Assembly (NCBI GenBank): GCA_001914955.1
Contig: MNDM01000044.1
Location: 1 to 64,000, forward strand
Source: Nitrospirae bacterium 13_2_20CM_2_62_8
GTDB lineage: Bacteria; Nitrospirota; Nitrospiria; Nitrospirales; Nitrospiraceae
Direction: 5' to 3'
Length of the DNA stretch: 64,000 nt
How positions within the stretch are numbered: position 1 is the stretch's first letter; each line of letters starts with the position of its first letter. The notes beneath the pieces are model-generated. The model was not told where the DNA came from and made no database searches. It saw only the letters and a list, made by a program, of their open reading frames with translations. Made by a program: the position numbers and the translations under genes. Positions 4,248 to 36,905 of the stretch are shown here, piece by piece.

Positions 4248-4331
4248 TCCCCCTAGGCTTGTGAAGGCGGTAGCCGGGAGACCTCGCAGGTCAGGCTCAA
4301 CCGGTACCGGCGCTGGGACAATGTGGATGGG

Positions 4332-9497: not shown

Positions 9498-9586
9498 AAG
9501 ATTCGCTAGTCTGTCCAGACTTGGAATTGTGTTAATACGTTTGCCGTCCCAGAGCGTATCATGGACTTAGTGCACCGCTGCCGCGA

Positions 9587-18666: not shown

Positions 18667-19158
18667 CTACAGGTTCGCCACCTGTTCGGACGGCACAACC
18701 ACGCGCGCCTGATAGGCCAGGGTTCTCAGCAACAAGACTACTCGCTGGTGGTCAGGCATCTCTCGCTCAAAGACCGCTTCAAACCCGCTGAGCGGACCAT
18801 CCTGAATCTTCACGACTTGACCTGGTGCCAGCAGTCGAGGAGCCAGCGACACGTAGCCATTGCAAAGCCTGGTTTTCATTCCCTGGATCAACTCCTCATC
18901 CACTCTTGCTGGCGTTGAGCCGAACTCCACTATTTTGCGCACCCCTCTGGCGTAGCTCACAGCCCGATGGTGCTCATTCAGGTCGAACCGTGCGAAGAGG
19001 TATCCGGGGAAAAGGGGGCCGGTCACCGTCTTGCGCATCCGGCGGATGATCTTGCTCCGCCTGAGGAGTGGCAGGAATGTCTCAACACTGAGCCGCTTGA
19101 GTTGCAACTCTGCCTCCTTTTCCCGATGCGGTTTCGTGTTGATTACATACCAGTGCAT
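18667..19158 (-). CDS. NusG paralogue, transcription antiterminator (RfaH/UpxY type)
   Basis: 163 residues from the ATG at 19158 (start MHWYVINTKPHREKEAE), preceded by CAGGGG. An in-frame ATG at 19236 would add 26 residues that do not belong to the family. The N-terminal NGN domain (to about residue 100) shows GPLFPGYLFARFDLNEHHRAVSYARGVRKIVEFG. A KOW domain follows (LLAPGQVVKIQDGPLSGFEAVFE). Specialised NusG paralogues of this kind bind RNA polymerase at a leader element and let it read through long polysaccharide operons. The gene precedes about 18 kb of same-strand biosynthetic genes, as expected for such a regulator. Confidence 0.88.
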   Translation of the reverse strand: MHWYVINTKPHREKEAELQLKRLSVETFLPLLRRSKIIRRMRKTVTGPLFPGYLFARFDLNEHHRAVSYARGVRKIVEFGSTPARVDEELIQGMKTRLCNGYVSLAPRLLAPGQVVKIQDGPLSGFEAVFEREMPDHQRVVLLLRTLAYQARVVVPSEQVANL

Positions 19159-19213
19159 GGTCGAATACCCCTGGGCGTCTCCAGGGCCTCTACGGGCCGG
19201 TTTTCGCGAAATA

Positions 19214-19272
19214 GGCAGGCCATTCGACAAGCTCATGACAGGCTACCGCCAACCCGGTGCATGACCGGCCTT
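19214..19272. repeat. Direct repeat copy B, with ops-like motif, in the leader of the NusG paralogue
   Basis: Second copy of the repeat at 18572-18630. On the coding (minus) strand, 19239-19250 reads GGCGGTAGCCTG, 11 of 12 identical to the ops core GGCGGTAGCGTG at which RfaH is recruited. It lies about 80 bases upstream of the antiterminator start codon. Part of the repeat (TTCGACAAGCTCA) also resembles widespread intergenic repeats such as the one at 62104-62137, so the ops match could be fortuitous. Confidence 0.7.
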
Positions 19273-19651: not shown

Positions 19652-21940
19652 TCATAAGTGTTTTTCGGCATCAGATCCGAGGTAGTACTCCTGCTGCATA
19701 TAGTAGGGAGTCCAGTCGGCTTGGAGGCCGGTCAGAACAATTCCGGCCTGATTGGGAATTCGAAGAGCCTTAAGCGCGTTCTTGACCACATCCCTTCCGG
19801 TTGTTCCTGCCCGAACCACGAGCGCCATGATATCGGCCATGCTCGCCAGCACGTTCATATCCGCCAAGGGTAGAATGGGCGGGGCGTCCATGATGATGTA
19901 ATCGAACCGTGACCGAAGTGTAGAGAGGATGGCGCTCAATTGGTTCATCTTGGACAACTCTACGGGCCTCCGGGCGGTCGAACCGGCCGGCAAGATCCAA
20001 AGTGGTAAATCCCCCAGTTTCTGCAGACAATCTTCAAGGGGATGGTCCTTGTGGAGAACCTTGGCCAGACCCGGCTCCGGCTCCGCTCCAGCGTACGCAT
20101 GGAGCACGGGTCTTTTGAAATCGCAATCCATGAGAAGAGTTGCCTTGCCTAGATCTTGCGCAAGGACGTACCCAAGATTCGCCGCTGTCGACGACTTTCC
20201 CTCTCCCATCACGGCGCTGGTCACCACCACAACAGTGTGCTCTCGTTCTGCACTCATCAAGGTGAGTTTTGTCGCGGCCACCCGGAATTGCTCGGCCACC
20301 ACGGACATGGGCCTCCACTTGGCCACCAGGTTGAGCTCTGGTGAAAACCCACGCTGGACAGCTCGACCGTTTTCAGGTCTAGCTTCCTGATTCGGGCCTT
20401 TCCCCCGATATTGGAGCAGGCCTTTGCTCCTGACAGGCGGGCTCGAGGGTGGTCCCTCAGTCGTTAAGGGGAGAAACTTGCCCGAGTGAGCAAAGGCGGT
20501 TTGGAAAGATGGAATCGCGGCAAGGAGCGGCAGCCCCAAGAAGATTTCGGCCTCTTCAGGGTAATTGAAGCTCTTCGCAATTTGCTCAAGGAGAACAGCC
20601 ATGCCGAACCCTAACCCGCATCCGATCAAAAGGCCTCCCAGCAAGATAAGCGGTTTGTTTGGCTTTTCAGGTTTCTCCGGCGTATTGGCCGGATCAATGA
20701 CCCGGAATTGCTCCCCTTTCTGTCGCCTCTCCAAATTCTCCGCGATTCTGGCGTTGAGCTTTTTCTCAAGCAGCGCCTGGTAGTTTTTCTGCATGTTCTC
20801 ATAATCCCTGACAAGAACCATCAGCTTCTGCTCGCGGGTTGGCGCCCGCTCGACCCTTCCTTCATAGTCCTTGATTTGCCCGCTGAGTCGGCTCAGACGC
20901 TCTTTGACCGAGGCGATCTCAACCTTCACCTCACCTCGTTGTCGATTTAGCTCCCGGAGGTAGGGATCCGCAGGTCTCGGCCCAACCGATTTACGTTCTT
21001 GGCCCAGCAGATCATCTGTCAGTTCGTCATCATTCGCCGGAGGCTCTGCCTTGAGCCCTGCGATCTCCTCTTTAAGCTGAACGATATCAGGGTAGTTCGG
21101 CTTATAAGTCATTGAGAGGGTGGCCAATTTCCGTTCCAGCTCTGTAAGACGGGAGAGACGATGCCCCGTCTTTCTTGTGGAGGCAGGCAACTCCATGGAG
21201 GGAGTTCCAGTGATCTCATATTCTTTAATAGCCTTCTCGATCACTCCAAGCCGAGCATTGAGGCTGCTCAACGTCTCATTTTGAGTAAACCCCTCGACTT
21301 GAAGGCGGTCCAGAGTTCGGAGATTGGCTTCCATTTGCTGAGGTAGTTCCCCCATGTATGCTCGCTTAAACTCGCTGATCGCTTTTTCGCGAGCCTCGAG
21401 TTCCTGTTTGGCCCCGGTGAGCTCGGACGCCAGGAACTCGTTGGCTCCTTCCACCAATTGTTCACGTGTACTGAGATTTTCCTTAATGAGAATGTCAGCG
21501 AGGGTCGCGGTGACTTTCTGGGCTGTGATTGGGATCTCGTGTTCGAAGGAGAGAGTAAAGGCCTGGTTATTCTTCGTTTTATCTATTGCGATGTTCTTCC
21601 GCATCCTTCCAATGCGATGCTCTAGACCCTTTCCTCGATCTTCCTCATAAAGGTTGAACATCTCGATGACCCGGGTGAGCAGTGTCCGACTTCTGAGCAT
21701 CTGTTGAATCATCTCGAGGCGGTCCTCAACCGTGCCTGTGACCACACCTTTCACGTAATCTTCCGGAACCTTCTGACTCTCGACTATGATCAACGTGCTG
21801 GATATGTAACTCCTGGGTAAGATCAGGCACAGCGCCAGAGCGATTGTTAGGGATAGAAGAATACATCCCACGATCAGCCATTTTCTTCGGCTGGCGATCC
21901 CCAGATAGTCCTGGAACGTGAATTCCCGAGCCTCTGTCAT
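19652..21940 (-). CDS. Polysaccharide co-polymerase fused to bacterial tyrosine kinase (Wzz-Wzc/GumC type)
   Basis: 762 residues. The N-terminal Wzz domain has a first membrane segment around residues 17-38, a long periplasmic coiled coil (about 100-410, with GTPSMELPAS), and a second membrane segment around 430 after NTPEKPEKPNKPLILLGG. The cytoplasmic BY-kinase domain has Walker A VVVTSAVMGEGKSSTAANLG (around residue 580), Walker A' LLMDCDFKRP, Walker B YIIMDAPPILPLADM, and a C-terminal tyrosine cluster (PYYMQQEYYLG) as the expected autophosphorylation site. It controls chain length and export together with the Wza-like proteins encoded just upstream. It overlaps the outer-membrane barrel gene by 4 bases. 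Confidence 0.93.
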   Translation of the reverse strand: MTEAREFTFQDYLGIASRRKWLIVGCILLSLTIALALCLILPRSYISSTLIIVESQKVPEDYVKGVVTGTVEDRLEMIQQMLRSRTLLTRVIEMFNLYEEDRGKGLEHRIGRMRKNIAIDKTKNNQAFTLSFEHEIPITAQKVTATLADILIKENLSTREQLVEGANEFLASELTGAKQELEAREKAISEFKRAYMGELPQQMEANLRTLDRLQVEGFTQNETLSSLNARLGVIEKAIKEYEITGTPSMELPASTRKTGHRLSRLTELERKLATLSMTYKPNYPDIVQLKEEIAGLKAEPPANDDELTDDLLGQERKSVGPRPADPYLRELNRQRGEVKVEIASVKERLSRLSGQIKDYEGRVERAPTREQKLMVLVRDYENMQKNYQALLEKKLNARIAENLERRQKGEQFRVIDPANTPEKPEKPNKPLILLGGLLIGCGLGFGMAVLLEQIAKSFNYPEEAEIFLGLPLLAAIPSFQTAFAHSGKFLPLTTEGPPSSPPVRSKGLLQYRGKGPNQEARPENGRAVQRGFSPELNLVAKWRPMSVVAEQFRVAATKLTLMSAEREHTVVVVTSAVMGEGKSSTAANLGYVLAQDLGKATLLMDCDFKRPVLHAYAGAEPEPGLAKVLHKDHPLEDCLQKLGDLPLWILPAGSTARRPVELSKMNQLSAILSTLRSRFDYIIMDAPPILPLADMNVLASMADIMALVVRAGTTGRDVVKNALKALRIPNQAGIVLTGLQADWTPYYMQQEYYLGSDAEKHL

Positions 21941-23418
21941 TTCTTCTCAGATCCTCTCTGATCAGATTCTGAGGCTTCAGGTGCCGGAGTAGGTCGCATA
22001 AACGCCGGCACAAAAAGCTCCCGGTCCCAAACTTTCGTAATCATGAGCATGAGGACCTTGCGATCAAAGTCAACCGCCGTGCTCATAACTTGTTGGTCGT
22101 AGTGGCCATAAGCGCCAACAGCCGAGGCCTTCAACGTGGAGGTAAGCAAGTAATTGACGCTCACATCACCCTGGTACGACATGAATGAAATATTACTTCC
22201 AGAGGAAGTCGAATCGTTACGGGCAAAGTTGGCTCCTCCGGTCACGCTTAGACGCTCCGTCAGCGGATGCGCGGTTGTGACCGTGACGGTTTGGCTCAGC
22301 AATGGGACTGCTGCAAGGAAAATGCTTGGGAACACCCCTACGGAGTAACTGAGCGTGGCCCTGCTCGTCGTAGGAGTTATTGGTCCCCCAGTCGGGGCCA
22401 TGCCACCGCCTACGATCGAGATTGGTGGCAGATTCGGACTTACCATACCGGCTTGGGCCTGGGGCAGGAGGATGCTGCTAAAGAAGCCTGATTCCATAGA
22501 GCCCGCGCCCCTCGTCCTTTCCCATATCAGCGACAGACTCCCATTCGGGAAGATCGCACCACCTGATATTGTTCCCACAAATCCCCCGCCCGGAGCACCT
22601 GTCCCACTGAATCGCTCAAAGACCGTCGCGCCAGCGGAAACAGTCGACCTGTATTCGGGCGACCATATCCTTGCCCAAGCCACTGAACCACTGTGGTTTC
22701 TTAAGGAATCTAGATTTGCACCGGGAAAATCAACCCGGTTGTATTGGTATGTAAGCCTCAGGTCATCGGTGGGAGAAACCCGCACAGCCGGGCCTGCTGA
22801 CACTGTCTGGCTATTTGTATTGAACAGGGCCAATGTCGTGCCCTGGGTCCCAAACCTGCTTCCGAATCGCATTAAGAAATTCGTATAACTGGTATGAAGG
22901 GTCTGCGTCGGAGAGAGGCGGTAGGAACCCATAACGGAGGCATGATTAGTCACTGAATTCACGCGAGAGATTTGGATTCCTCTGGTGAAGGGATTTTGTA
23001 CCTCCCCACCTCCTATCCCGAAGGCTGGCGCCTGTGGGGTGTACAGAAAGGATTCAGAGACCGACAAGGCTGTTCTCGGGAAAAACCGGTTCACCGCTCG
23101 ATTCAGATTGAGTGCCAGACTACCATTGCCACCTACGTAGTTCAGGTCTGGATTGTTCGCATAGGCCTCAGCCGTTGCCCCGGCCAGAAGCCCCCCCTCC
23201 ATGAGATTCCCCCTGTGTCCGATCAAGACCTTCGGTGACACCGACGTCACGAAATCTTCTAGCTTCAAGCCAGGGGTTTTGGGCAGAAAAAACACGTTCG
23301 AATCGTACCGTTCCGAGACAGAGAGGATAGGCGCCAATCGAGTCTCTCCGTAAGTCGGGTTTGCTGTCGCCATAATTCCTGAAGCCAGTATTAGGGATAC
23401 ATACCTTGGACGTCTCAT
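21937..23418 (-). CDS. Outer-membrane beta-barrel protein of exopolysaccharide operon (EpsL-like)
   Basis: 493 residues from the ATG at 23418, which begins a good signal peptide (MRRPRYVSLILASGIMATA, cut near NPTYGE). A TTG 21 bases earlier is also open. The mature part consists of alternating amphipathic strands with frequent aromatic ends (SVSERYDSNVFF, LRLTYQYNRVDFPG, SVNYLLTSTLKASAVGAYGHYDQQ), typical of the outer-membrane proteins encoded beside Wza and Wzc in exosortase-type loci. It probably forms part of the export path or anchors the polymer. The family assignment is by pattern and context. Confidence 0.75.
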   Translation of the reverse strand: MRRPRYVSLILASGIMATANPTYGETRLAPILSVSERYDSNVFFLPKTPGLKLEDFVTSVSPKVLIGHRGNLMEGGLLAGATAEAYANNPDLNYVGGNGSLALNLNRAVNRFFPRTALSVSESFLYTPQAPAFGIGGGEVQNPFTRGIQISRVNSVTNHASVMGSYRLSPTQTLHTSYTNFLMRFGSRFGTQGTTLALFNTNSQTVSAGPAVRVSPTDDLRLTYQYNRVDFPGANLDSLRNHSGSVAWARIWSPEYRSTVSAGATVFERFSGTGAPGGGFVGTISGGAIFPNGSLSLIWERTRGAGSMESGFFSSILLPQAQAGMVSPNLPPISIVGGGMAPTGGPITPTTSRATLSYSVGVFPSIFLAAVPLLSQTVTVTTAHPLTERLSVTGGANFARNDSTSSGSNISFMSYQGDVSVNYLLTSTLKASAVGAYGHYDQQVMSTAVDFDRKVLMLMITKVWDRELFVPAFMRPTPAPEASESDQRGSEKK

Positions 23419-23425
23419 GATGCCT

Positions 23426-24025
23426 TTAGGGCACCACAATGACGTCCCCAGATTTTAGGAAGAAGTTGCCGATCGAGCCTTTGCCAGACAATATCTGGTC
23501 GTAATTTATGGGTATTTGGATCTGATGTGCTGTGCCTTGTCCATTCGTGCCCAGGCGCAGTACGTGCATTTTGTCCTTTGATGCGAAGATCGTGAAGCCG
23601 CCGGCCAAGGAAACCCCTTGTAGTACGGTCGCATAGGACTTGAGTGGATACTTGCCGGGCTTCACTACTTCCCCGAGCACGTAGATGAAATAGCTGTTGA
23701 CCTCCTTGACCTGCACCGACACGGTCGGAGTCGCCATGATCTCTTTCAACCGCTCGGCAATCCGTTTGGCAAGCTGATTCGCCGTAAGCCCTGCGGCTGG
23801 CACATCCCCAATGAGTGGCATTGAGATCAACCCGTCCGGCCGAATCACCACATCGCGGGAGAGGTCCTGGTTCCGCCACACCGTCACCACCAACACATCT
23901 TCCGGCCCCAGGAGGAATTCAGCCGCGGGAGCGTACTCCACCGGGTAATTAATCTGTTTGACGCACCCCTGCGAAGCTTCTAGTGTCATGATTGCGATGA
24001 GGGTCATTATGATAGCTCGTGTCAT
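23426..24025 (-). CDS. Polysaccharide export outer-membrane protein (Wza-like), copy 1
   Basis: 199 residues. A short hydrophobic leader ends in a possible lipobox cysteine (LEASQGC, Cys21). Then comes the Poly_export domain (YLLGPEDVLVVTVWRNQDLSRDVVIRPDGLISMPLIGDV-type pattern) and one SLBB domain (YFIYVLGEVVKPGKYPL). It is short, with a single SLBB and no C-terminal helix region, which is usual for this export subclass. It is closely similar to the gene directly upstream (24280-25062). The two would form or line the periplasmic and outer-membrane export channel. Confidence 0.9.
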   Translation of the reverse strand: MTRAIIMTLIAIMTLEASQGCVKQINYPVEYAPAAEFLLGPEDVLVVTVWRNQDLSRDVVIRPDGLISMPLIGDVPAAGLTANQLAKRIAERLKEIMATPTVSVQVKEVNSYFIYVLGEVVKPGKYPLKSYATVLQGVSLAGGFTIFASKDKMHVLRLGTNGQGTAHQIQIPINYDQILSGKGSIGNFFLKSGDVIVVP

Positions 24026-25186: not shown

Positions 25187-25582
25187 TCATAAGATGAATT
25201 TCATGCCGACAAAACAGAGACCTTGGTATCCACCCTCATCAAATGGGATTTTCCGTACCCAGCGTACTTCAGCTAATGTCGGCGTCCTGGCGGTGAGTAT
25301 TGGTGTAGGAACGTGGAGTTTGACCACACATTCCATACGAGGGGCCTCGTCCATAAGGAGGAGCATCCCGCCGGAGCATATATTGAGCGAGAGGGCTTTC
25401 CCGTTATGCCCTGCCGTTACTTTAGGGGCTAACAACTTCTCCTCCTCGTCGTCATCGTCCGCCTGTTCAGGCCCTTCAATTGTCGTGGTCACCTCATATG
25501 GCACAGTTCTCATCAATGAGTAACGTTCTCTGTGCTGCTGTGAATTGGGGGAAACAGTCCAGGCACCCTCATCGAACGGCAT
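25187..25582 (-). CDS. PilZ-domain protein 1
   Basis: 131 residues from the ATG at 25582, preceded by GAGGTGGAGA. An upstream GTG at 25684 lacks a ribosome site. The PilZ fold is recognised from RYSLMRTVPYEVTTTIEG, ALSLNICSGGMLLLMDEAP and TPTLAEVRWVRKIP, which align with the two other PilZ genes of this island. The c-di-GMP loop normally reads [D/N]xSxxG. Here it is NICSGG, with Cys where Ser is expected, and the upstream RxxxR is not clear, so binding may be altered. An acidic insert (ADDDDEEEK) is unique to this copy. It lies upstream of the export operon on the same strand and is probably co-expressed with it. Confidence 0.75.
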   Translation of the reverse strand: MPFDEGAWTVSPNSQQHRERYSLMRTVPYEVTTTIEGPEQADDDDEEEKLLAPKVTAGHNGKALSLNICSGGMLLLMDEAPRMECVVKLHVPTPILTARTPTLAEVRWVRKIPFDEGGYQGLCFVGMKFIL

Positions 25583-25778
25583 TCTCCACCTCGCCCGCGC
25601 AACAAATTGTGCACTGCGATCTTCACGTCTCCAGTTCAAGGCTATGGTGTTACTCTGAACAGATGCTTCGCGCCACGGCGTCACAAAGTCTGGGGTTAGC
25701 AGTTGTGACGAACGCTCAGGAAATGGAGAAACAAATATCGGGGGAGTTTAGGCAGAAGTTTGCCGGAACACAATAACA

Positions 25779-25853
25779 CCAAAGTATGGTGTACTCAGCC
25801 ATACCAAAGTATGGTGCACCCTACCATACCAAAGTATGGGTTACCTCTCCTTA
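25779..25853. promoter_or_regulatory. Three 25-bp tandem repeats with a quasi-palindromic core (operator-like)
   Basis: The 11-base core CCAAAGTATGG occurs at 25779, 25804 and 25829, spaced exactly 25 bases apart. With flanks, copies 2 and 3 read CCATACCAAAGTATGG (inverted arms CCATAC/GTATGG) and copy 1 reads ACACCAAAGTATGGTGT. A diverged fourth core, CCAAAGTACTAGG, lies at 25872. The array sits between the divergently read PilZ gene and the first LuxR gene. This is what a multi-site operator for a dimeric regulator would look like. Confidence 0.7.
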
Positions 25854-25987
25854 AGGATGGGTTGACTACTTCCAAAGTACTAGGTTAGCCTATGGCGCTC
25901 TTCGTAATTTGCCATGCCGGTAAGAGCGGCTGAGTTGAATCTATTTCTCTTTCTCTGGAAACTGCCCAATAAGCTTGAAGCGGGGCG

Positions 25988-26677
25988 ATGCGCGACATGG
26001 CAGTTATGAAGGCGGCTGCGGTTGTAAATTTCTTCGACGGCTTTGACAATTCTTCTAGCGACAATCTCATCCACCAACGCGGAAGCCTCGGCATACTTGT
26101 GCTTGCTCCCCCTGCGCGACTTCTTCAGATGAGTCAGCGAGCATGGGATGTAATTAGGCAGATCCATGACGATGAATTGGGAAACGGGGAGGGTAATTCG
26201 AAGGCAGCGAGGGGGTTACTGCCGACAGCGCTTCTCCAGATCTGTCGGGAAACCTTCACTCACCTTCAAAGCCGAACCACGACAAAGGACTGGGAGCAAT
26301 TTGAAGTGCGGCAGATTATCGGTACCCCCAATAGTTCGATGCTCATCCGCGGCTACGGTGTACCCGACCGACGCGGGAGCGAGCATGCGCTCATTATTGT
26401 CATCCTCGAAGCTCTCGGCCGTCGGGAAAAGGAGTCAAAACGGAGCGAAGGGAACGGCCACTGGAATGGCGACGTCAACGAGCAGACGAAGGAGCGGTTT
26501 CAATTCACCGATCGTCAGCAGGAGGTGGTGAAGTGTCTCGCAAGAGGCTGGACCAACAAGGAAATTGCCTCCAATCTCGGGATTGCCCTCCCCACCGTCA
26601 AGGAACACGTGAGACACATTATGGAGAAGACCGAGTCAACCACCCGAACAGGAGTCCTTATGCGGGTCTTGCGCTGA
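25988..26677 (+). CDS. LuxR-type transcriptional regulator 1
   Basis: 229 residues. The C-terminal LuxR/FixJ helix-turn-helix (about 171-229) reads FTDRQQEVVKCLARGWTNKEIASNLGIALPTVKEHVRHIM. The N-terminal part (about 35-145) looks PAS-like (GILVLAPPARLLQMSQRAW ... IIVILEAL), with no autoinducer-binding or receiver signature. GAAGCGGGG precedes the ATG, and other in-frame ATGs follow within 20 bases. It is closely related to regulator 2 at 27494. It is read away from the 25-bp repeat array and converges on the PilZ 2 gene, with a 4-base gap. Confidence 0.85.
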   Translation: MRDMAVMKAAAVVNFFDGFDNSSSDNLIHQRGSLGILVLAPPARLLQMSQRAWDVIRQIHDDELGNGEGNSKAARGLLPTALLQICRETFTHLQSRTTTKDWEQFEVRQIIGTPNSSMLIRGYGVPDRRGSEHALIIVILEALGRREKESKRSEGNGHWNGDVNEQTKERFQFTDRQQEVVKCLARGWTNKEIASNLGIALPTVKEHVRHIMEKTESTTRTGVLMRVLR

Positions 26678-26681
26678 TCAT

Positions 26682-27047
26682 CTAGACTCTGTATTCAATC
26701 CTTCCTTCTCTCCACGCAGCATCGCGGCGGACCAGGAACCTGACCCCAACGAAGTATCTGCTCTCATCTCTATCCATATGGATTTTCCGCGTCCAGCGCA
26801 CTTCTGCCCGCGTCGGTGTCTTGACCATGGCCAGGGGTGTCGGCACTTGCACTCTCAGCTCCTGGTTCAGGGCTGGCGGCTGATCCATGAGGAGCAACAT
26901 TCCCTTCGAGCTGATGTTCACCGCGAGCGCCTCTCCTCGAGACGTCACGATCAATTCCTGACCCAGGGATTCGATGATTTCATACGGACATGAACCAACA
27001 AGTGGAAAACGATCGGTGCGTTTTAGGCGTTTCGAACCCGGCACCAT
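26682..27047 (-). CDS. PilZ-domain protein 2
   Basis: 121 residues. KRTDRFPLVGSCPYEIIESLG is the N-terminal arginine region. VNISSKGMLLLMDQPP contains an intact [D/N]xSxxG loop (NISSKG), followed by MVKTPTRAEVRWTRKIHMD. It is a single-domain c-di-GMP receptor by pattern and would act by binding a partner or changing conformation. A convincing promoter lies just upstream on the minus strand. It is similar to copies 1 and 3 along its whole length. Confidence 0.78.
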   Translation of the reverse strand: MVPGSKRLKRTDRFPLVGSCPYEIIESLGQELIVTSRGEALAVNISSKGMLLLMDQPPALNQELRVQVPTPLAMVKTPTRAEVRWTRKIHMDRDESRYFVGVRFLVRRDAAWREGRIEYRV

Positions 27048-27077
27048 GGCGTTGTCACTCGGATGAGGCCGGGTCTT

Positions 27078-27106
27078 TCTATAGCAAAGCGATTTCTTGG
27101 CGTCAA
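27078..27106 (-). promoter_or_regulatory. Sigma70-type promoter for PilZ gene 2
   Basis: On the minus strand, TTGACG (27101-27106), a 17-base spacer and TATAGA (27078-27083). Predicted transcription starts about 25 bases before the PilZ 2 start codon at 27047. The rest of the 450-base gap up to 27494 holds no gene. It includes another CAAAGTACT motif (27457-27465) like the one near regulator 1. Confidence 0.6.
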
Positions 27107-27493
27107 GTGAAAAGTACAGTATATAGAGGGATCAACAACAGGGAAGCCCAAGATGTGGTTGGTTCAGGTCAGCGGCGGCAGGATTCATGAACCAAAGCAA
27201 GCAAAACGCTTCCAGTTAAGCCTGAGCCGAGGCGGGGTACCCTTACGACAGGATAAAGGGTATCGGTTTCGATAATACATGGTGTTCTCAGAACGGTCTT
27301 TATGCGTCTCGCACTACTCCTCACCTCTCGTTCCTCTTGAAAAGGCAGGGATCTTTTTCCACTCCCCGCTGGATGGGTTTTCCCCACCCTGGGAGCAAGA
27401 AGGTCGGTTCGTCAGCCTACCCTACCCCTTCCCGACAGGTTCTTTACAATTACTTCACAAAGTACTTGACAAGCAGATGATTCTAAGTGGATA

Positions 27494-28156
27494 GTGCCCC
27501 TCGCAGTTCACTTCAACGACTGCCAAACCATGCATCAACAGCAAGGGGTGAAAGAACCACCCCAGTCGAGTGGCCTCCCGGAGAAAATTGCTGAGCCACG
27601 CGGAGGCCCCGGCGTTCTCGTGCTTGCCCCACCCATGCGGTTGCTCCATATGAATCAACGGGCATGGGATCTCACGTCACACATCGATCACTGTGAGAAT
27701 GGGAATGGGATTTCAAAAGCAGCGAAAGGCCTGCTTCCCGCTCCGCTCCTGCAGCTCTGTGCCGAAATCTTTCGACATCTCAAAGATCGAACGGAGGCGA
27801 AGGACTGGGAGCAGTTTGAGGTCAGGCGCATGTTGGGGGCCCCCGAACGACCGTTGATGATTCACGGCTTCGGGGTGCCTGGAAACAAGGGGCAGGAACA
27901 GTCGCGCGTGATTATCGTCATGGAGGAGCTGGGCAGCCAAAACGGGAACGCGAATCAGCAAGCGGCGGAGCGGTTTCAGTTCACGGATCGGGAGCAGGGC
28001 GTCGTCCAGTGTCTCGCAAAAGGTTGGACCAACAAAGAAATCTCGTGCGAGCTCGGGATTGCCATGCCGACCGTCAAAGAGCACATCCGACACATTATGG
28101 AGAAGACCAAGTCAACGACCCGCACTGGCGTCCTTGCTCAAATCTTTCGCTCGTAA
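27494..28156 (+). CDS. LuxR-type transcriptional regulator 2
   Basis: 220 residues from a GTG. An ATG at 27530 is the alternative, and the segment AVHFNDCQ aligning with AVVNFFDGFDN of regulator 1 favours the longer form. It has the same plan as regulator 1. The PAS-like N-terminal region (GVLVLAPPMRLLHMNQRAW) is followed by a LuxR helix-turn-helix (FTDREQGVVQCLAKGWTNKEISCELGIAMPTVKEHIRHIM). It converges on PilZ gene 3 with a 24-base gap, repeating the arrangement of regulator 1 with PilZ 2. Confidence 0.83.
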   Translation: MPLAVHFNDCQTMHQQQGVKEPPQSSGLPEKIAEPRGGPGVLVLAPPMRLLHMNQRAWDLTSHIDHCENGNGISKAAKGLLPAPLLQLCAEIFRHLKDRTEAKDWEQFEVRRMLGAPERPLMIHGFGVPGNKGQEQSRVIIVMEELGSQNGNANQQAAERFQFTDREQGVVQCLAKGWTNKEISCELGIAMPTVKEHIRHIMEKTKSTTRTGVLAQIFRS

Positions 28157-28180
28157 TCACCCTATCCCTCATGGAGACTT

Positions 28181-28657
28181 TTAAGCTCGCTGCTCGAACA
28201 CCCTCTCCTTGGGATTTGAAGACAGTCCGCTCAAGAACTTGACCCCCACCAGGTACCTCTTGTCATAGTCCTCAATCGGGATCGCACGGGTCCAACAGAC
28301 TTCGACCAGCGTGGGTGACTTCACTATTTTAGAGCCGGGCACGCGTAGTAGGAACACGTGCTCCACCGGAGGAGCCTGATCCATAAACAGCAACATTCCC
28401 CCGGCGCTGATATTCATCGCGACTGCCTCCCCTTGGTGAATCGCGATCGATTCATCACCTAGGAAGTCACTTATTTCGTAGGGACACGATCCCATGAACG
28501 CAACACGCTCTTGGCGCCTGCATTCCTGGTGGAGCGGTTCTGCAGGTATTCCCCGGTCCTGCTTGGCCGCCACCTGCTCTCCGGGTTTCTCTTCCCTCGG
28601 TTGCTGGCGCCGAGCTACTAGAATGTAGATGAGTCTGCGCAGGTCAGGAAGTCGCAT
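28181..28657 (-). CDS. PilZ-domain protein 3
   Basis: 158 residues. An N-terminal extension of about 45 residues, basic and polar, precedes the PilZ domain: RRQERVAFMGSCPYEISDFLG (an intact RxxxR), VAMNISAGGMLLFMDQAPP (an intact NxSxxG) and SPTLVEVCWTRAIPIED. Of the three copies this has the most complete c-di-GMP signature. No clear ribosome site was seen at the chosen start. Downstream it converges on LuxR regulator 2. Confidence 0.76.
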   Translation of the reverse strand: MRLPDLRRLIYILVARRQQPREEKPGEQVAAKQDRGIPAEPLHQECRRQERVAFMGSCPYEISDFLGDESIAIHQGEAVAMNISAGGMLLFMDQAPPVEHVFLLRVPGSKIVKSPTLVEVCWTRAIPIEDYDKRYLVGVKFLSGLSSNPKERVFEQRA

Positions 28658-29129: not shown

Positions 29130-31073
29130 TTACGACGCGGAGGGCGTTTTGTTGCGGCTGAACACGTAGTCCTTGAGCGTGCGCCGGATGATGCCTTGCG
29201 AGAGCGCAGGGTACTCCCCGCGAAGGGCGCGCTGGCCGATCGCCGTGATGGGTTGATCATCATTGCTGATGAGTTCGCGGATCGCGGTGTTGATCCGCTG
29301 CTTGGCGGTCCGGAAGAACTCGTCCGCAAGATCCCATGCGACCCTGTTCCCCGCGGTGCGCTCCTGCGACTCGGCGTAGAGCGCCGTCGCGGCGATGGTG
29401 AGGAGATCTTCTCCAACCGCCTCGATCCTGTTCTGCCTGCCTTGATCATCGCGGAGCTCGGCTCGATGCCAGGCCATGGCGTAGAAAATCGCGCGGGCGA
29501 GACGACGGCTCATCCGCTCTGCATAGACCAGTTTCCCACGGACTTTGGGGTGCCGCATGGCCGGGCGATCGAGACGCACTCGCCGTTTCCACTGCCCCAG
29601 GTACCAGAAGAAGTAGAACCGGAGGAGCTTCAAAAACTCACGAAGCTTCCCGGCGCCCGTCATGTCCCCGCCAAAGTATCGTCCGGCGCGATCGAGATGC
29701 GGGCTGAGCCCCTCGCGAGCCACATACGGCCGCAAGATGTCCGTGGCGCCTTCTCCAATACGGGCCATCTCGGCATCCCGAACGAGTTGTTCGATGCCGA
29801 ACGCCGGCTCGCCACGGACTCGCTTTGAATCCGCCGTCTCATACCCCATGCCCCCGAAAATGATCTGCGCGTCCTTGAGAAACTGAATCGTCTTCTCCGA
29901 GCAGAACATTTTGGCGATGGCGGCTTCGATTCTGATGTCGTGCTGCTTCTGGTCCGCCAGATGCCAGGCCAGCACGGCCAGCGCTTCCATCGCGAACAGG
30001 GTCGTGGCCATCTGGCCGATCCGCATTTGTTGCGTCTGGCGCTCGCCAATGGGTCTCCCAAAGGTCAGGCGGGAGTTCGCCCGGTCCAGGGTCGGCTGCC
30101 AGGCCTGCTTGGCCATGCCGAGACAAAGCGCGGGGACGCTAATGGCACGCCCGACGTTGAGGATCGTGAAGGCGTACCGGAGCCCCTTCCCGATCTCTCC
30201 GATGACGTTGTCGACGGGGACCTGGACGTCCCGGAAGATCAGGTGCCCGTTTTCAATCCCGCGGCAGCCTTCGAACTGGCATCGCTGGCGAACCTGCACT
30301 CCGGCGGTGGTCATGTCGAGGATGAAGGCGGTGGGCACGTGGTCCTCAGCTCGGTTCGACTCACGCACCGGAGTCCAGACCGGTTTGCCGTCGCGCTGAG
30401 CCCGCTGCACAGGGACGCGTGCGATGAGGGTGAGATAGCGGGCGATCGGCCCGTTCGTACACCATATTTTTTCGCCGTTGACGGTGAAATGGCTGCCGGT
30501 CTGGTCCAGCACCGCTTCCGTTCGGATGTTCGCGGCATCGGATCCGGTGAGCGGTTCGGTCAGCGCGAAGGCGGAGATGTCCTCCCGCGCCACGCGAGGC
30601 AGATATTTGGTTTTTTGTGCGTCGTTTCCGAAGAGCAGGATGGGGATCGCGATGCCGATGGATTGGGGCACTGCGACCGTGAGCGACAGAATATTGCTCC
30701 AACTGGCCATCACGGTCAGCACCCGACCGTAGTTCTTATAGGAGAACCCCAGGCCCCCGTACTGTTTCGGGATCTTCATCCCGAAGGCCCCGAGGTCGAA
30801 CAGCCCCTTGAGGACCTGGGCTGGAATCTTCGCCGTGCGCTCGATCTCGTCCGGATCGACCTCGCTCCTGAGAAAGGCCTCCATTTTCTTGCAATAGGTT
30901 TCGCCCGCCTCCCGCTCTTCGGGCGGCTCGTCCGGTGGACAGAGCAGATCAAAATTGGGCCTGCCCTCGAACAGCCCCGCCATGAAGCTCGACCCGGTGA
31001 TGCGCTCGCGGGCTTCCTCGATCCGCTCCATTCCCTTCAAGAGGGTCGTCATCCCATCACCTCTCTGCCGCAA
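29130..31073 (-). CDS. Acyl-CoA dehydrogenase, long (VLCAD/ACAD9-like) form
   Basis: 647 residues. FAD enzyme for the first oxidation step of acyl-CoA. Seen: LGAFGMKIPKQYGGLGFS, SAFALTEPLTGSDAANIRTEA (flavin-binding loop), GEKIWCTNGPIA, GRPIGERQTQQMRIGQM, and ARIGEGATDILRPYVA, whose glutamate sits at the catalytic-base position. After about residue 460 comes an extra helical C-terminal domain, as in VLCAD and ACAD9, giving the unusual length. The likely start is either MRQRGDGM or the second ATG seven codons later. It ends the minus-strand catabolic operon, two bases after the tryptophanase gene. Confidence 0.9.
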   Translation of the reverse strand: MRQRGDGMTTLLKGMERIEEARERITGSSFMAGLFEGRPNFDLLCPPDEPPEEREAGETYCKKMEAFLRSEVDPDEIERTAKIPAQVLKGLFDLGAFGMKIPKQYGGLGFSYKNYGRVLTVMASWSNILSLTVAVPQSIGIAIPILLFGNDAQKTKYLPRVAREDISAFALTEPLTGSDAANIRTEAVLDQTGSHFTVNGEKIWCTNGPIARYLTLIARVPVQRAQRDGKPVWTPVRESNRAEDHVPTAFILDMTTAGVQVRQRCQFEGCRGIENGHLIFRDVQVPVDNVIGEIGKGLRYAFTILNVGRAISVPALCLGMAKQAWQPTLDRANSRLTFGRPIGERQTQQMRIGQMATTLFAMEALAVLAWHLADQKQHDIRIEAAIAKMFCSEKTIQFLKDAQIIFGGMGYETADSKRVRGEPAFGIEQLVRDAEMARIGEGATDILRPYVAREGLSPHLDRAGRYFGGDMTGAGKLREFLKLLRFYFFWYLGQWKRRVRLDRPAMRHPKVRGKLVYAERMSRRLARAIFYAMAWHRAELRDDQGRQNRIEAVGEDLLTIAATALYAESQERTAGNRVAWDLADEFFRTAKQRINTAIRELISNDDQPITAIGQRALRGEYPALSQGIIRRTLKDYVFSRNKTPSAS

Positions 31074-31075
31074 CT

Positions 31076-32479
31076 TTAGAGACCGGACCGTTGTGACGTT
31101 CGCACGGGAAGCTCTTCGAACCGCGCCGTGAAGTGGCGGAGGACCGGCGCTTCATAGGTCATCCTGAACCCGGCGATGGATTCGCGCCGCCGGTACAGCT
31201 CGATGATCGATTCCGCCACGTAGGTGATCTGCATGTTGGTGTACACCCGCCGGGGAATCGCCAAGCGCACCATCTCAAGCTCGGGATAGACGGTCCGGCC
31301 GGTGGCCTGGTCCTTCTTGCCGAACATCACCGTGCCGATCTCCACCCCGCGGATGCCGTACTCGCGGTACAGGGCGATCGCCAACGCCTGAGCCGGAAGC
31401 TCCTCGGGACGCAGGTGAGGGAGATAGGCCCTCGCATCGAGGTACACCGCGTGCCCGCCGATCGGTCGCAGGATCGGCACCCCGGCGGTGTCCAGGAGCT
31501 CGCCCAGATAGCGGACCTGGCCGATCCGAAACCGTAGGTAGTCCTCATCCAGCACCTCCCGAAGCCCCCTGGCCATGGCCTCAAGGTCGCGTCCGGCCAG
31601 CCCGCCATAGGTCGGGAACCCTTCCACCAGGATCAGCATGTTGGTGATGTCGCGGGCCCACTGTTCATTGTTCAGGCTCAGGAAGCCGCCGATATTGACC
31701 AATCCATCTTTCTTGGCCGACATCGTGCAGCCATCCCCGTAGCCGAACAACTCCTGGGCGATCGCGAGGATCGAGGTGTCGGCGTATTCTGCCTCCCGCT
31801 CCTTGATAAAGAAACAATTTTCGGCGAACCGGCAGGCGTCGAAGAAGAGCGGAATGTGGTACCGCTTCACCAGCGCCCGCGTCTGCCGGATGTTCTCCAT
31901 CGAGACCGGCTGGCCGCCACCGCTATTGTTCGTGATCGTGAGCATGACCAGGGGAATGCGGTCGCGCCCCAGCCGGTTGATGGTCTCCTCCAGCCGCACG
32001 AGGTCCATGTTGCCCTTGAACGGGAGTTCGCAGCGCGGATCGTAGGCTTCCTTGATGACCAGATCGAGCGCGTCGGCGCCTTGGTGCTCGACGTTGGCCC
32101 GCGTCGTATCGAAATGGATGTTGTTCGGGACGCACATCCCGGACTTCACGACGGTGGAAAACAGGAGGTTCTCGGCCATGCGGCCCTGATGGGTCGGGAT
32201 CACATGGCGGTAGCCGAAGATCGAGCGCACCGCTTCCTCGAAATGGTAGTAGTTCTCGCTTCCGGCGTAGGACTCATCGCCCAGCATCATGCCGGCCCAC
32301 TGGTTATCGCTCATCGCGGCCGTCCCGCTGTCGGTCAGGAGGTCCACGTAGACGCTCTTCGCGGGGATCTGAAAGAGGTTGTACCCAGCTTGACGCAGCA
32401 GACGGTCTCGCTCCTCCCGCGTCGTCCGGCGGATCGGCTCAATCACTTTGATCTTAAACGGCTCCGAGGGAAACTTCAT
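31076..32479 (-). CDS. tnaA: Beta-eliminating PLP lyase, tryptophanase type (TnaA/Tpl family)
   Basis: 467 residues, full length for the tryptophanase/tyrosine phenol-lyase family. PLP lysine is Lys257 in CTMSAKKDG. YAGSENYYH, THQGRMAENLL and FFDACRFAENCFFIKE are family hallmarks. At the three positions that separate the enzymes, this protein has Asp124 (Thr124 in Citrobacter tyrosine phenol-lyase), Ile381 (Arg381 there) and His449 (Phe448 there), all the tryptophanase type. It would therefore split tryptophan to indole, pyruvate and ammonia, although overall similarity to tyrosine phenol-lyase is high. It lies between an XRE-type regulator and the acyl-CoA dehydrogenase. Confidence 0.85.
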   Translation of the reverse strand: MKFPSEPFKIKVIEPIRRTTREERDRLLRQAGYNLFQIPAKSVYVDLLTDSGTAAMSDNQWAGMMLGDESYAGSENYYHFEEAVRSIFGYRHVIPTHQGRMAENLLFSTVVKSGMCVPNNIHFDTTRANVEHQGADALDLVIKEAYDPRCELPFKGNMDLVRLEETINRLGRDRIPLVMLTITNNSGGGQPVSMENIRQTRALVKRYHIPLFFDACRFAENCFFIKEREAEYADTSILAIAQELFGYGDGCTMSAKKDGLVNIGGFLSLNNEQWARDITNMLILVEGFPTYGGLAGRDLEAMARGLREVLDEDYLRFRIGQVRYLGELLDTAGVPILRPIGGHAVYLDARAYLPHLRPEELPAQALAIALYREYGIRGVEIGTVMFGKKDQATGRTVYPELEMVRLAIPRRVYTNMQITYVAESIIELYRRRESIAGFRMTYEAPVLRHFTARFEELPVRTSQRSGL

Positions 32480-32491
32480 GGGTCACGCTCC

Positions 32492-33484
32492 TCACGCCAA
32501 TCGCGCCAACTGCGCCTGGAACGACTTGCCCCCTTCATATTCGAACACGTATCGGGTCATGTCGAAGAGCGGGGCCGGGTTCAACTCCCGAATCAGGTCC
32601 GGCTTCCAGGTAATCTGGAGCCGGCTGATCATGGTGATCGGCGTCGGTTTCCCGACCACCCCGAGGGGGACCTCGTCGTACGATTGCGAGAAGATCAGGA
32701 TCTCCCCGTCGAACATCGCGGCGTTGAGGTCCTGGGCGGCGCCGTGCTTCTTGAAGTCCTCTCCCAACCGTTGAAACGCGGGCGCACGATCGAGATCCTC
32801 CCGGAACCCGTAAAAAATCTTGATGCCGGCTCGCTGCTGATCCTCCATGATCTGGATCGCATCGGCAACCAAGGGCGCGTGTCGCATCTGTTCCCGGGTC
32901 AGGATCAGCAGCCGACGGATGCGGACGTTGCGACGGACCGCCGCCTGGTTGGCCAGCAGGTAGCTGGGATACAGAGCCTCGCCTTTCTTCCAGATGTTCC
33001 AGCGTTCCATGAAGGCGTCCACGGAGCGTTCGGCCGTCTCCATCAGCCGGACCGCTTCGGCGCTCGCGGCGGCGCCATCGTACGTCAGCGTCTGGGACTC
33101 GAGCTGACGGAGTTCCCGGCCGATCGCCTCCACTTTGCGCGGAATGTACCGGGGGCTCTTCGGGACGTGCAGCATCACGTCGACGGCGTTCAGCGCCAGC
33201 ATCCAGTACTCCTTGGCCGGCGCCGGCGCCTTGTCCTTCTGCGCGATCAGCAGCAGCTCGACCGGGTTCCTGTCCAGGAGCTTCGCGATCTTGATGCAGA
33301 GCTCAGGTCTCGGCACCTTTAGCCCCCGGCGAATGAGATTGGCCTCAGGCTGGGCGATCCCCAGCTTCTCGGCCAGCGCATAATCGCTCTTCAGGTGGTA
33401 CCGTTGCTTGATCGCTTCGATATACCCTGCAATCTCCATCGTCATGCCCTCACCCCACGTCTCACCCGGAGTCGATGGGACCAC
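32492..33484 (-). CDS. XRE-family helix-turn-helix regulator with large C-terminal domain
   Basis: 330 residues (315 if the ATG at 33439, start MEIAGYIEAIKQRY, is used). The HTH spans about residues 16-80: YALAEKLGIAQPEANLIRRGLKVPRPELCIKIAKLL. The remaining 240 residues have no clear family. They include a conserved-looking helical part and a segment (RNVRIRRLLILTREQMRHAPLVADAIQIMEDQQ, then GIKIFYGFREDL) reminiscent of phospholipase-D-like or sensor folds in other XRE proteins. It sits immediately upstream of the tryptophanase gene in the same operon, so local control of amino-acid or acyl-CoA breakdown is plausible. Confidence 0.72.
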   Translation of the reverse strand: MVPSTPGETWGEGMTMEIAGYIEAIKQRYHLKSDYALAEKLGIAQPEANLIRRGLKVPRPELCIKIAKLLDRNPVELLLIAQKDKAPAPAKEYWMLALNAVDVMLHVPKSPRYIPRKVEAIGRELRQLESQTLTYDGAAASAEAVRLMETAERSVDAFMERWNIWKKGEALYPSYLLANQAAVRRNVRIRRLLILTREQMRHAPLVADAIQIMEDQQRAGIKIFYGFREDLDRAPAFQRLGEDFKKHGAAQDLNAAMFDGEILIFSQSYDEVPLGVVGKPTPITMISRLQITWKPDLIRELNPAPLFDMTRYVFEYEGGKSFQAQLARLA

Positions 33485-33525
33485 CAGGGCCGCATGAGCC
33501 GGTCCCAGATGCTCTGAACCTAGTC

Positions 33526-34749
33526 CTATGGTCGCGTCCGGTCAGGCGACGCGGTTGACAACGCTGCCGAGAGTCCGGCCTGACTCTGTCCCGATGCCGG
33601 CTGCACGCCCGGCTCAGTCCCCGGCGAGGTGAGCTGCCCGAAGCGTTTCCGCCCCAGCTCCTCGAACCGGGCGAGAGAGATCGGAATGCCGTTACGAGCA
33701 AACCGCGCGAGGACCAGCGCAAACTGCTCCTTCACCGCATCAATCACCGCCTGGTACCCGCATCGGAGGAGCTGGATGCGGTCCGGCAGGCTGAGAAAGC
33801 TCCGTTCGAAAAACAACGTCTCGGTCGGCTTCGGCGAGATGACGATACAGTCTTTTTCCGGATGCTCCCGGGTGAACACAGCCAAGGCCTGGGAGAACCG
33901 CACGTCAAGGTTGATCCTCGAGGCCTGATCGCCGATTGACAGGAATCCCATGTCCCGGATGCGCGGGGGGCGCCGGCTGCGGGTGCGAAGCCAGGCTGCC
34001 GCCGTGTCATACTGGAAGCAGACCGAAGGATTAATGATCACCATGAGGTCCGCGTCTCTCTGGACCGCCAGGTCAAAGAAGGTGATGCGGCCGATCCCGG
34101 CATCGATGTAGTCGCGGCCTTCGATCCTGACCGGGGCGAAATAGATGGGAGCGGCGGACGAGGCGGTGACCGCCTTGGAGATCGGGACAAATCGCCATCC
34201 CTCAGACCCGAAGATGACGCTCTGCCCGGTCTCCAGATCGATCGCCGGAATATAGAGCTCCTTGCGTAGCCCGTCAAAGCTGTTGCTGAATCCCTTTTCG
34301 GCAAAGGTGGTCTCAAGGTAGCGAGCGAACGGCTCTAAGGTGTAGAGCCCGCAGGGGAGGGCCTCCTGGACCTTGTCCAGCACGTCAATAAAGCTCATCT
34401 CACGGAAATTTCGCAGGTACAGTCGGAGCAGCGGGATCAGTCGTTGAATCGCACGGGGGACGGTCTTCAGGCCTTCTCCCATCGCGGGGGTAAAGATGTG
34501 GCGGCGCTCGAAATAATACGGTGGTTTGCCGGTAAGATTAGCATCAAGGATCTCCTCAGGCGTGACCCCGTTGGCCAGCAACGAGGCGGCTGCGGACCCG
34601 GCGCTCACCCCGATGAACATCTCGAAGTCATTGACTCCGAAGCCCTCTTCGAACAGATCGTTCAAGGCGGCGAGCGCTCCGATCTCGAAGAGGTACCCGC
34701 TAAACCCGCCTCCCGACAGCGCCAAGGCCAGCTTTGATGAGCGGTTCAT
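33526..34749 (-). CDS. Patatin-like phospholipase
   Basis: 407 residues. N-terminal oxyanion-hole motif LALSGGGFSGYLFEIGAL, nucleophile elbow FIGVSAGSAAAS (catalytic Ser near residue 49), and the aspartate motif YIDAGIGRITFFDLA around residue 220. This Ser-Asp dyad hydrolyses acyl esters of lipids. Between enoyl-CoA hydratase and the XRE regulator, it could release fatty acids that feed the beta-oxidation enzymes encoded upstream. The C-terminal 60 residues are low-complexity and polar. No signal peptide is seen. Confidence 0.85.
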   Translation of the reverse strand: MNRSSKLALALSGGGFSGYLFEIGALAALNDLFEEGFGVNDFEMFIGVSAGSAAASLLANGVTPEEILDANLTGKPPYYFERRHIFTPAMGEGLKTVPRAIQRLIPLLRLYLRNFREMSFIDVLDKVQEALPCGLYTLEPFARYLETTFAEKGFSNSFDGLRKELYIPAIDLETGQSVIFGSEGWRFVPISKAVTASSAAPIYFAPVRIEGRDYIDAGIGRITFFDLAVQRDADLMVIINPSVCFQYDTAAAWLRTRSRRPPRIRDMGFLSIGDQASRINLDVRFSQALAVFTREHPEKDCIVISPKPTETLFFERSFLSLPDRIQLLRCGYQAVIDAVKEQFALVLARFARNGIPISLARFEELGRKRFGQLTSPGTEPGVQPASGQSQAGLSAALSTASPDRTRP

Positions 34750-34769
34750 CGTCCTGATCCCGGAGATGA

Positions 34770-35558
34770 TCAGCGATCCTTGAAGCGGGGCTGCCGCTTT
34801 TCCAGGAAGGCGGTCAGTCCTTCTTTTTTGTCCTCCGATTCACACAACCCACCGAACAGGCGAGCCTCTAAGGCCAATCCCTCGGAGAGCCCTGTCGCCT
34901 CCCCCTGGTGAATCGCCCGGAGCGCGGTTCGAACCGCCATCTGGCCTTTCGACGCGATCCGGCGCGCCAGCCCCTGCACCTGGCGCAGCAGGTCCGCATC
35001 CGGCACCACCTGCGACACCAGACCCAAGGCTTTGGCTTCCTGCGCCGAGATGAGATCGCCGGTCAGGATGAGCTCGGTCGCCTTGGACCGGCCGAGGATG
35101 CGTGGGAGCCGCTGGGTGCCACCGAACCCCGGCATGATGCCCAGGGTGATCTCGGGCAGGCCCAGCCTGGCGCTTTCCGCCGCAATCCGGATATGGCAGC
35201 ACAAGGCCAGTTCCAACCCACCGCCCAGACAGGCGCCGTTGATCGCCGCGATGACTGGCTTCTCGAGGGCTTCGATCCTGCTCAGGATCGCCTGCCCCCG
35301 CAAGGCCATCTCCATGCCATCCTTTGAAGAGGCGATCCCTGCCAGGACCCGGATTTCCGCCCCGGCGACGAAGAATCGGCCCGCTCCCGTGAGCACGACC
35401 GCCTTGACCGTCGCATCACGGGCCAGCGCCGCGAACGCACCCTCCAGCTCCACCAGCAGTTCAGGGGTGAGCGTGTTGGCCGGAGGATGGTTTAGGGTCA
35501 AGGTGGTAACAGAGTCCGTGTCCGCACGCGACAGGAGCGTGTTCACACTCGTGCTCAT
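34770..35558 (-). CDS. Enoyl-CoA hydratase/isomerase (crotonase family)
   Basis: 262 residues. VTTLTLNHPPANTLTPELLVEL at the start, GAGRFFVAGAEIRVL (oxyanion hole), INGACLGGGLELALCCHIRIA and LPEITLGIMPGFGGTQRLPR. The glutamates in GGLELA and LPEITLG are the two catalytic residues of hydratases, so hydration of 2-enoyl-CoA is expected. It is closely similar to a second copy at 59724-60503, down to the C-terminal EKR.PRF ending. It forms a split FadB-like pair with the adjacent 3-hydroxyacyl-CoA dehydrogenase. Confidence 0.9.
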   Translation of the reverse strand: MSTSVNTLLSRADTDSVTTLTLNHPPANTLTPELLVELEGAFAALARDATVKAVVLTGAGRFFVAGAEIRVLAGIASSKDGMEMALRGQAILSRIEALEKPVIAAINGACLGGGLELALCCHIRIAAESARLGLPEITLGIMPGFGGTQRLPRILGRSKATELILTGDLISAQEAKALGLVSQVVPDADLLRQVQGLARRIASKGQMAVRTALRAIHQGEATGLSEGLALEARLFGGLCESEDKKEGLTAFLEKRQPRFKDR

Positions 35559-35597
35559 CGCTTCGTCTCCCCTTCCGGTGAGTTGCTCACTGGCTCC

Positions 35598-36821: not shown

Positions 36822-36905
36822 GGCTCCTCTTCTGTCGCCACAGGCTATGGGCAAGGGGCGAGGGGCTATGGGTTCCGTCCTCTCGCCTCGCGCCCCTTGC
36901 CTTCT

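Follow-up and report, generated by a model that had tools for sequence, protein, structure and literature searches.

A five-gene PilZ/PAS-LuxR array in a Nitrospiraceae genome as a probable enlarged version of a conserved regulatory head at exopolysaccharide export genes

Results

Layout of the array and the export operon

The DNA analysed here (the window) is a stretch of 64,000 nucleotides from contig MNDM01000044.1 of Nitrospirae bacterium 13_2_20CM_2_62_8, a member of the Nitrospiraceae with an incomplete genome (2.0 Mb, 73% complete). It carries an array of three genes for PilZ proteins on the minus strand (P1, P2 and P3) alternating with two genes for LuxR-type regulators on the plus strand (L1 and L2; Table 1), which very probably is an enlarged version of a regulatory head that is conserved at the exopolysaccharide export genes of the Nitrospiraceae. 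The five open reading frames (ORFs) are all intact and were found at the places and on the strands given in an earlier note on this DNA, with convergent gaps of 4 bp (L1-P2) and 24 bp (L2-P3). As also described there, P1, the PilZ gene nearest to the exopolysaccharide genes, lies on their strand. It heads a row of two SLBB genes, a beta-barrel gene and a Wzc-type gene; polysaccharide synthesis genes are found farther along, beyond the Wzc-type gene to the left of the array. The Wzc-type assignment is barely above the cut-off of TIGR03007 (282.6 versus 278.85). Membership of the XrtA/PEP-CTERM polysaccharide system was rejected, with TIGR03027 scores of 150 and 129 under the cut-off of 180 and no exosortase found in the 73%-complete genome (one is present in four relatives). 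The search for a cyclic diguanylate (c-di-GMP) riboswitch or another known RNA near the locus returned only a sub-threshold microRNA match.

Conservation of the locus in relatives

A search with L2 yielded 80 loci elsewhere, almost exclusively in Nitrospira genomes, together with relatives in 100 genomes, and LuxR and PilZ profiles were run over the collected loci. Many of the compared genomes are close relatives, and the locus counts are not independent. In the Nitrospira-type loci the recurrent order is Wzc, barrel, SLBB, SLBB and PilZ on one strand, and LuxR on the other. A divergent PilZ gene is present at the LuxR gene in 55 of the 71 scorable loci (at least 900 bp of DNA upstream of the LuxR gene), while a convergent PilZ gene downstream of LuxR is found in none of the 71. 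Because of this distribution the ancestral unit, as far as gene order tells, is the divergent P1-L1 and not the convergent L1-P2 or L2-P3. The earlier note had proposed searching genomes for LuxR genes of this N-terminal type beside PilZ genes near polysaccharide loci; the pairing is indeed kept across the Nitrospiraceae, at the head of the export genes, but the convergent arrangement that it took as the unit is not conserved at this locus.

Enlarged sets also occur in a sister family: in locus L139 (4525-7624) a single LuxR gene is surrounded by three PilZ genes, and locus L134 (6208-11843) contains a pair of such LuxR genes along with two complete or fragmentary PilZ genes. Two contigs with typical Nitrospira versions of the LuxR locus are labelled Bacteroidetes (L041) and Nitrosospira (L057), and are probably mislabelled or misbinned.

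The control region between PilZ and LuxR

Almost all Nitrospira-type loci have, upstream of the LuxR gene, the element TTGACT-[AC]CC[TC]CGAAAG-x-GTTAGGTACTAT, which scores at least 30 of 42 in 74 of the 78 loci from the genome_contigs set that include upstream DNA (the highest of 60 shuffled regions reaches 23). Its 26-bp version is present in one copy per genome, just upstream of this LuxR gene, in eight of eight genomes of 3.1-4.7 Mb, and the reversed control gave no match in these eight. On the operon side, alignment of the intergenic regions brought out a second element in 51 of 80 loci, ACAATACCRAYGAYGTA with TTGTNN-17-TATANT after it on the minus strand, and the distance from the start of this element to the LuxR-side TTGACT is 40-42 bp in 48 of 50 loci. 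Because the remaining intergenic DNA does not align between loci, the shared region reads as the footprint of two back-to-back sigma70-like promoters with a fixed geometry.

In the window, the place of the relatives' operon-side element in the alignment is occupied by three tandem 25-bp repeats, overlooked in the earlier note, which are candidate operators for the LuxR proteins. A sequence similar to these repeats, CTACTAAAGTATGG, lies in the upstream DNA of locus L039, and the LuxR protein of this locus has the same recognition helix as L1 and L2, ALPTVKEH instead of EQTVKEH (IALPTVKEH in L1 versus ITEQTVKEH). This coincidence, seen in three proteins only, hints that operator and recognition helix may have changed together. 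The only other suggestive place in a search for the repeat palindrome is on contig C72 of the window's genome (locus L173, 8755-8800), where the 25-bp-repeat-like palindromes CCCTACGAAAGTAGGG and CCATACTTTTGGAGGG, 24 bp apart, lie upstream of an ORF (8970-9746) for a probable secreted protein.

The LuxR proteins

Both LuxR proteins match the GerE family PF00196 (E = 1.7e-12 for L1 and 6.7e-13 for L2; 47-48 bits versus a cut-off of 23.5), as do all 32 members of the LuxR set A2. L1 and L2 are 55% identical over 206 amino acids (aa) and form a clade with the LuxR protein of one other genome (support 100/99). The predicted structure of L2 (predicted local distance difference test score, pLDDT, 82.7) shows a PAS domain followed by a helix-turn-helix (HTH), the nearest solved structures being EL222 and VqmA. 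The N-terminal part, not recognised as a PAS domain in the earlier note, has the strand and helix order b-b-a-a-a-b-b-b in the model (pLDDT mostly ~90), and PAS domains are also among the top matches of the fold search. The true start of L2 is probably the ATG at 27530, since the promoter-like -10 sequence overlaps the listed GTG start.

The PilZ proteins

P1-P3 are proteins of 121-165 aa with one PilZ domain each. P2 (31.8 bits, E = 1.9e-7) and P3 (26.4 bits, E = 9e-6) exceed the gathering score of PF07238 (22.5), whereas P1 remains under it (12.6 bits, E = 0.18); P1 is a diverged PilZ homologue, with BLAST E values of ~1e-20 to P2 and P3 and a place in the clade of operon PilZ proteins. The pairwise identities are 47% (P2/P3), 34% (P1/P2) and 36% (P1/P3). 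The ATG at 25579 is the probable start codon of P1, giving a protein of 130 aa, because the relatives open with a W-x-W-P segment, the counterpart of which follows this codon. The predicted PilZ structure is a six-strand barrel; the top match of its fold search is a PilZ structure, although a weak one (E > 0.001), and the PilZ domain of the cellulose synthase BcsA is among the matches.

Canonical c-di-GMP binding was taken to need both RxxxR and [DN]xSxxG. Profile searches of the PilZ alignments against PDB sequences gave no match, and for this reason the motif positions, including the register of RxxxR, rest on the alignment with type B relatives (see below) and on the Pfam boundaries. P3 has the complete canonical motif (RxxxR and NISAGG), P2 has KxxxR and NISSKG, with the conservative replacement of the first arginine by lysine, and in P1 both halves are altered (QxxxR and NICSGG). 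The earlier note had read the three loops correctly and had taken them to suggest graded or lost binding; graded binding is plausible, but the loop is only half of the motif, and the RxxxR half adds that P1 is the most degraded.

Two PilZ types are distinguished in the tree: type A, the operon type, which includes P1, and type B, to which P3 and PilZ copies of other genomes belong. In the tree P3 clusters with members of another family (f2), and P2 shifts between the two types depending on the rows included. Several type B proteins (at L224, L225, L226, L233 and L234, and P3 in the window) have in common an HRILSxL-like N-terminal stretch before the PilZ domain, which may form an amphipathic helix.

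Pairing of PAS and PilZ genes

Searches with type B PilZ led to stand-alone PAS proteins of ~140-160 aa, which correspond to the PAS domain of the LuxR proteins alone and are encoded beside a PilZ gene; at least six were found, in six genomes (Table 1). Their matches to Pfam PAS families are sub-threshold only. In 28 genomes with 83 PAS-family and 96 PilZ places, 31 pairs lie within 1.5 kb of each other, against 0.26 expected by random placement; 24 of them are divergent (nearly all at the export locus), five are on the same strand and two are convergent. No export genes adjoin those stand-alone pairs for which neighbours were listed. Since a PAS domain without the DNA-binding part also adjoins other PilZ genes, the deeper association, as judged by gene neighbourhood, is of PAS with PilZ and not of LuxR with PilZ. 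This gene pairing, the stand-alone pairs included, is our strongest reason for suspecting that PAS and PilZ proteins may touch each other.

Table 1. Array genes, export genes and control elements of the window, and stand-alone PAS/PilZ pairs of other genomes
Feature	Position	Strand or orientation	Basis
P1, export-operon type (type A) PilZ	25187..25684	minus	ORF, BLAST to P2/P3, PilZ tree
L1, PAS + GerE (LuxR-type) regulator	25988..26677	plus	ORF, Pfam, predicted fold, tree
P2, PilZ convergent with L1; uncertain placement between two PilZ types	26682..27047	minus	ORF, Pfam, tree
L2, PAS + GerE (LuxR-type) regulator	27494..28156	plus	ORF, Pfam, predicted structure, tree
P3, type B PilZ convergent with L2	28181..28657	minus	ORF, Pfam, tree
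Three tandem 25-bp repeats, palindrome-like core CCATAC-CAAA-GTATGG, P1/L1 intergenic	25778..25852	none	TRF score 96, alignment
Promoter-like element of L1, TTGACTACTTCCAAAGTACTAGGTTAGCCTAT, weakly corresponding to Nitrospira LuxR-side element	25862..25893	plus	24/42 matches
Promoter-like site of L2, TTGACA-18-GATAGT, with TACTTCACAAAGTA, similar to the L1 element, ahead of it	27466..27495	plus	promoter-like sequence, repeat D5
SLBB polysaccharide export protein, first export gene past P1	24280..25062	minus	profile matches, gene order
Second SLBB polysaccharide export protein	23426..24025	minus	profile matches, gene order
Outer-membrane beta-barrel protein of export operon	21937..23439	minus	weak BBP2_2, TIGR03016
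Polysaccharide chain-length determinant / tyrosine autokinase, Wzc type	19652..21940	minus	TIGR03007
RfaH-like antiterminator; near the same module in ~19 other loci	18667..19236	minus	profile matches over loci
Stand-alone PAS + PilZ	L219 3589-4590	convergent
Stand-alone PAS + PilZ	L220 4137-5176	convergent
Stand-alone PAS + PilZ	L163 5664-6610	same strand, PAS first
Stand-alone PAS + PilZ	L235 3876-4773	same strand, PAS first
Stand-alone PAS + PilZ	L236 1125-2066	same strand, PAS first
Stand-alone PAS + PilZ	L241 ~3850-5000	same strand, PAS first

On the other side of the array, a minus-strand group of genes (29130-36854) encodes an acyl-CoA dehydrogenase, an enzyme of the tryptophanase/tyrosine phenol-lyase family, a patatin-like protein, an enoyl-CoA hydratase and a 3-hydroxyacyl-CoA dehydrogenase.

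Discussion

Proposed mechanism

By sequence, P1 stands first in the SLBB-SLBB-barrel-Wzc row and L1 is read in the opposite direction out of the common intergenic region, the two very probably forming the regulatory head; besides these, the window's genome has a second PAS-LuxR gene (L2) and the PilZ genes P2 and P3, both convergent with a LuxR gene. From the promoter footprint, the PAS-LuxR protein may bind between the two promoters, setting its own level as well as that of the PilZ-export operon. The gene association suggests that the PilZ proteins would be single-domain adaptors, making contact with the PAS domain and modulating its binding to DNA. For P3, and perhaps for P2, this would be a response to c-di-GMP; P1 would bind the nucleotide weakly or not at all. 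The PAS domain may bring a second signal. Polysaccharide output would in this way come under the control of c-di-GMP through a PilZ/LuxR pair. We consider the chances of the complete mechanism (regulatory head, control of both promoters by PAS-LuxR, and PilZ adaptors acting on PAS) to be about even. Seven GGDEF proteins are encoded in the window's genome. In the window, a protein of 1408 aa (55318-59544) has a GGDEF domain (59005-59475) and is a possible local source of c-di-GMP.

More broadly, and tentatively, PAS and PilZ may form a dedicated two-protein signalling unit of the Nitrospirota, in which c-di-GMP is sensed by the PilZ adaptor and the adaptor switches the PAS domain of its partner, whether or not a DNA-binding domain is attached. 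The LuxR version, acting on a divergent promoter pair, would gate the export of matrix polysaccharide, and here it would have been multiplied into a small array of graded c-di-GMP affinity.

Several observations weigh against the proposed mechanism. About 11 Nitrospira loci have the LuxR gene and the export operon yet no PilZ gene, and the PilZ frame appears broken in locus L055, so that LuxR can apparently work without the operon PilZ; no PilZ gene is found near other LuxR relatives (L145-L156). Binding of c-di-GMP by the conserved operon PilZ is doubtful, because the first arginine of RxxxR is missing in the type A relatives read (asparagine or lysine in its place; glutamine in P1). In the window itself, the LuxR-side element is barely above the background at L1 (24 of 42 versus 23 for the best shuffled region) and its best match at L2 equals the background. 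A genome-wide regulon could not be defined by the repeat palindrome, near-matches to which are about as many as for the control pattern.

Alternative explanations

The main alternative, which we regard as unlikely though it deserves serious weight, is that PilZ has no contact with LuxR. The operon PilZ would act post-transcriptionally on the export or synthesis machinery, as the PilZ domains of Alg44 and BcsA do, LuxR would separately control transcription, and the proximity of the two genes would reflect operon membership only. In most relatives the export operon begins with the type A PilZ gene, BcsA appears among the fold matches, and LuxR persists in loci that lost PilZ, all of which agree with such a role; this explanation leaves unaccounted for, however, the stand-alone PAS genes of the same family, which adjoin type B PilZ genes in varied orientations and outside polysaccharide loci.

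The earlier note had pictured repeated duplication of a convergent LuxR-PilZ pair, each pair being a graded c-di-GMP response unit. The short convergent gaps, the close paralogy of L1 and L2 (the 100/99 clade) and the two further convergent PAS/PilZ pairs in other genomes speak for this model. The duplication part of it probably holds for the LuxR genes but not for the three PilZ genes: the approximately unbiased test rejects descent of all three from one origin (p-AU = 1.9e-5), which refutes the model for P1, and it disfavours P2 and P3 as a clade without formally rejecting it (p-AU = 0.059), with P3 falling among the copies of f2. Together with the lack of convergent pairs among the scorable relatives, this makes the model improbable. 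Because one PilZ origin is rejected and P2+P3 disfavoured, the trees are better explained if the LuxR gene was duplicated and the other PilZ genes were recruited or gained separately. Least probable of all is that L1 and P1 function as in other Nitrospira and P2, L2 and P3 are redundant, decaying leftovers with no distinct role, as the fast-evolving PilZ branches and the PilZ loss and one broken copy among relatives might suggest, since none of the five frames is broken, both c-di-GMP motifs are preserved in P3, and L1 and L2 carry the same altered recognition helix.

Relation to known systems

Like the LuxR proteins of the window, VqmA and EL222 combine a sensor domain (PAS or LOV) with a GerE-type HTH, and they are the nearest solved structures of the LuxR model, but the identity is only 14-20%. 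VqmA responds to 3,5-dimethylpyrazin-2-ol (DPO) and EL222 to light; we know of no PilZ partner for either. EpsA (TIGR03020), the regulator of XrtB/PEP-CTERM polysaccharide loci, is likewise a LuxR-type HTH regulator of a polysaccharide locus and gives the best or second-best match among the curated families; L1 and L2 do not belong to it, with scores of 38.7 and 40.9 bits versus a cut-off of 170 and a match in the HTH region only. The c-di-GMP-binding LuxR regulators VpsT and CsgD have a receiver-like N-terminal domain with a W[FLM][TS]R motif. Assignment to this group was rejected as well, given the N-terminal PAS domain of L1 and L2, the lack of the motif in both, and a match of the CsgD model to the HTH region only.

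Adjacent PilZ and LuxR-type genes at a c-di-GMP-linked biofilm surface-structure locus are known from MrkHI of Klebsiella pneumoniae, where mrkH and mrkI are co-transcribed and MrkH (234 aa) is itself a c-di-GMP-dependent activator (PMC3161979). That system governs fimbriae and not polysaccharide, and P1-P3, being shorter, single-domain and encoded on the strand opposite to LuxR, are not members of it. Closer in kind is TssZ (PA0012) of Pseudomonas aeruginosa, a single-domain PilZ protein. In PMC10912698, TssZ is described as binding HinK and keeping it off DNA in a c-di-GMP-dependent way; HinK is a regulator of LasR type found as its partner by yeast two-hybrid, with pqsR and the type VI secretion system (T6SS) as the target; the binding is weaker with c-di-GMP, and a non-binding TssZ mutant keeps HinK off DNA. 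The likeness is in a single-domain PilZ protein combined with a transcriptional regulator, contact being seen for TssZ and only suggested by the genes in the window; the text consulted describes no adjacent-gene pairing there (PMC10912698), whereas the window's PAS-LuxR and PilZ genes are adjacent at a polysaccharide operon. The same text states that single-domain PilZ proteins act through partners, and cites HapZ-SagS and MapZ, also single-domain adaptors with a protein partner, although the former works with a histidine kinase and the latter with a chemotaxis methyltransferase, not with a PAS-LuxR protein (PMC10912698). Partner-binding PilZ adaptors are thus already known, and what differs here is likely the PAS-LuxR partner with adjacent genes at a polysaccharide operon.

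In our literature search, which covered subscription journals poorly, neither a description of this locus nor anything on the control of matrix polysaccharide in Nitrospira was found. Nitrospira count among the major nitrite oxidisers of biofilms and treatment plants, and the conserved PilZ/PAS-LuxR head with its footprinted divergent promoter offers a precise and testable entry point to the control of their matrix polysaccharide. If PAS and PilZ do form a physical unit, a PAS-domain partner would join the few PilZ adaptors with known partners.

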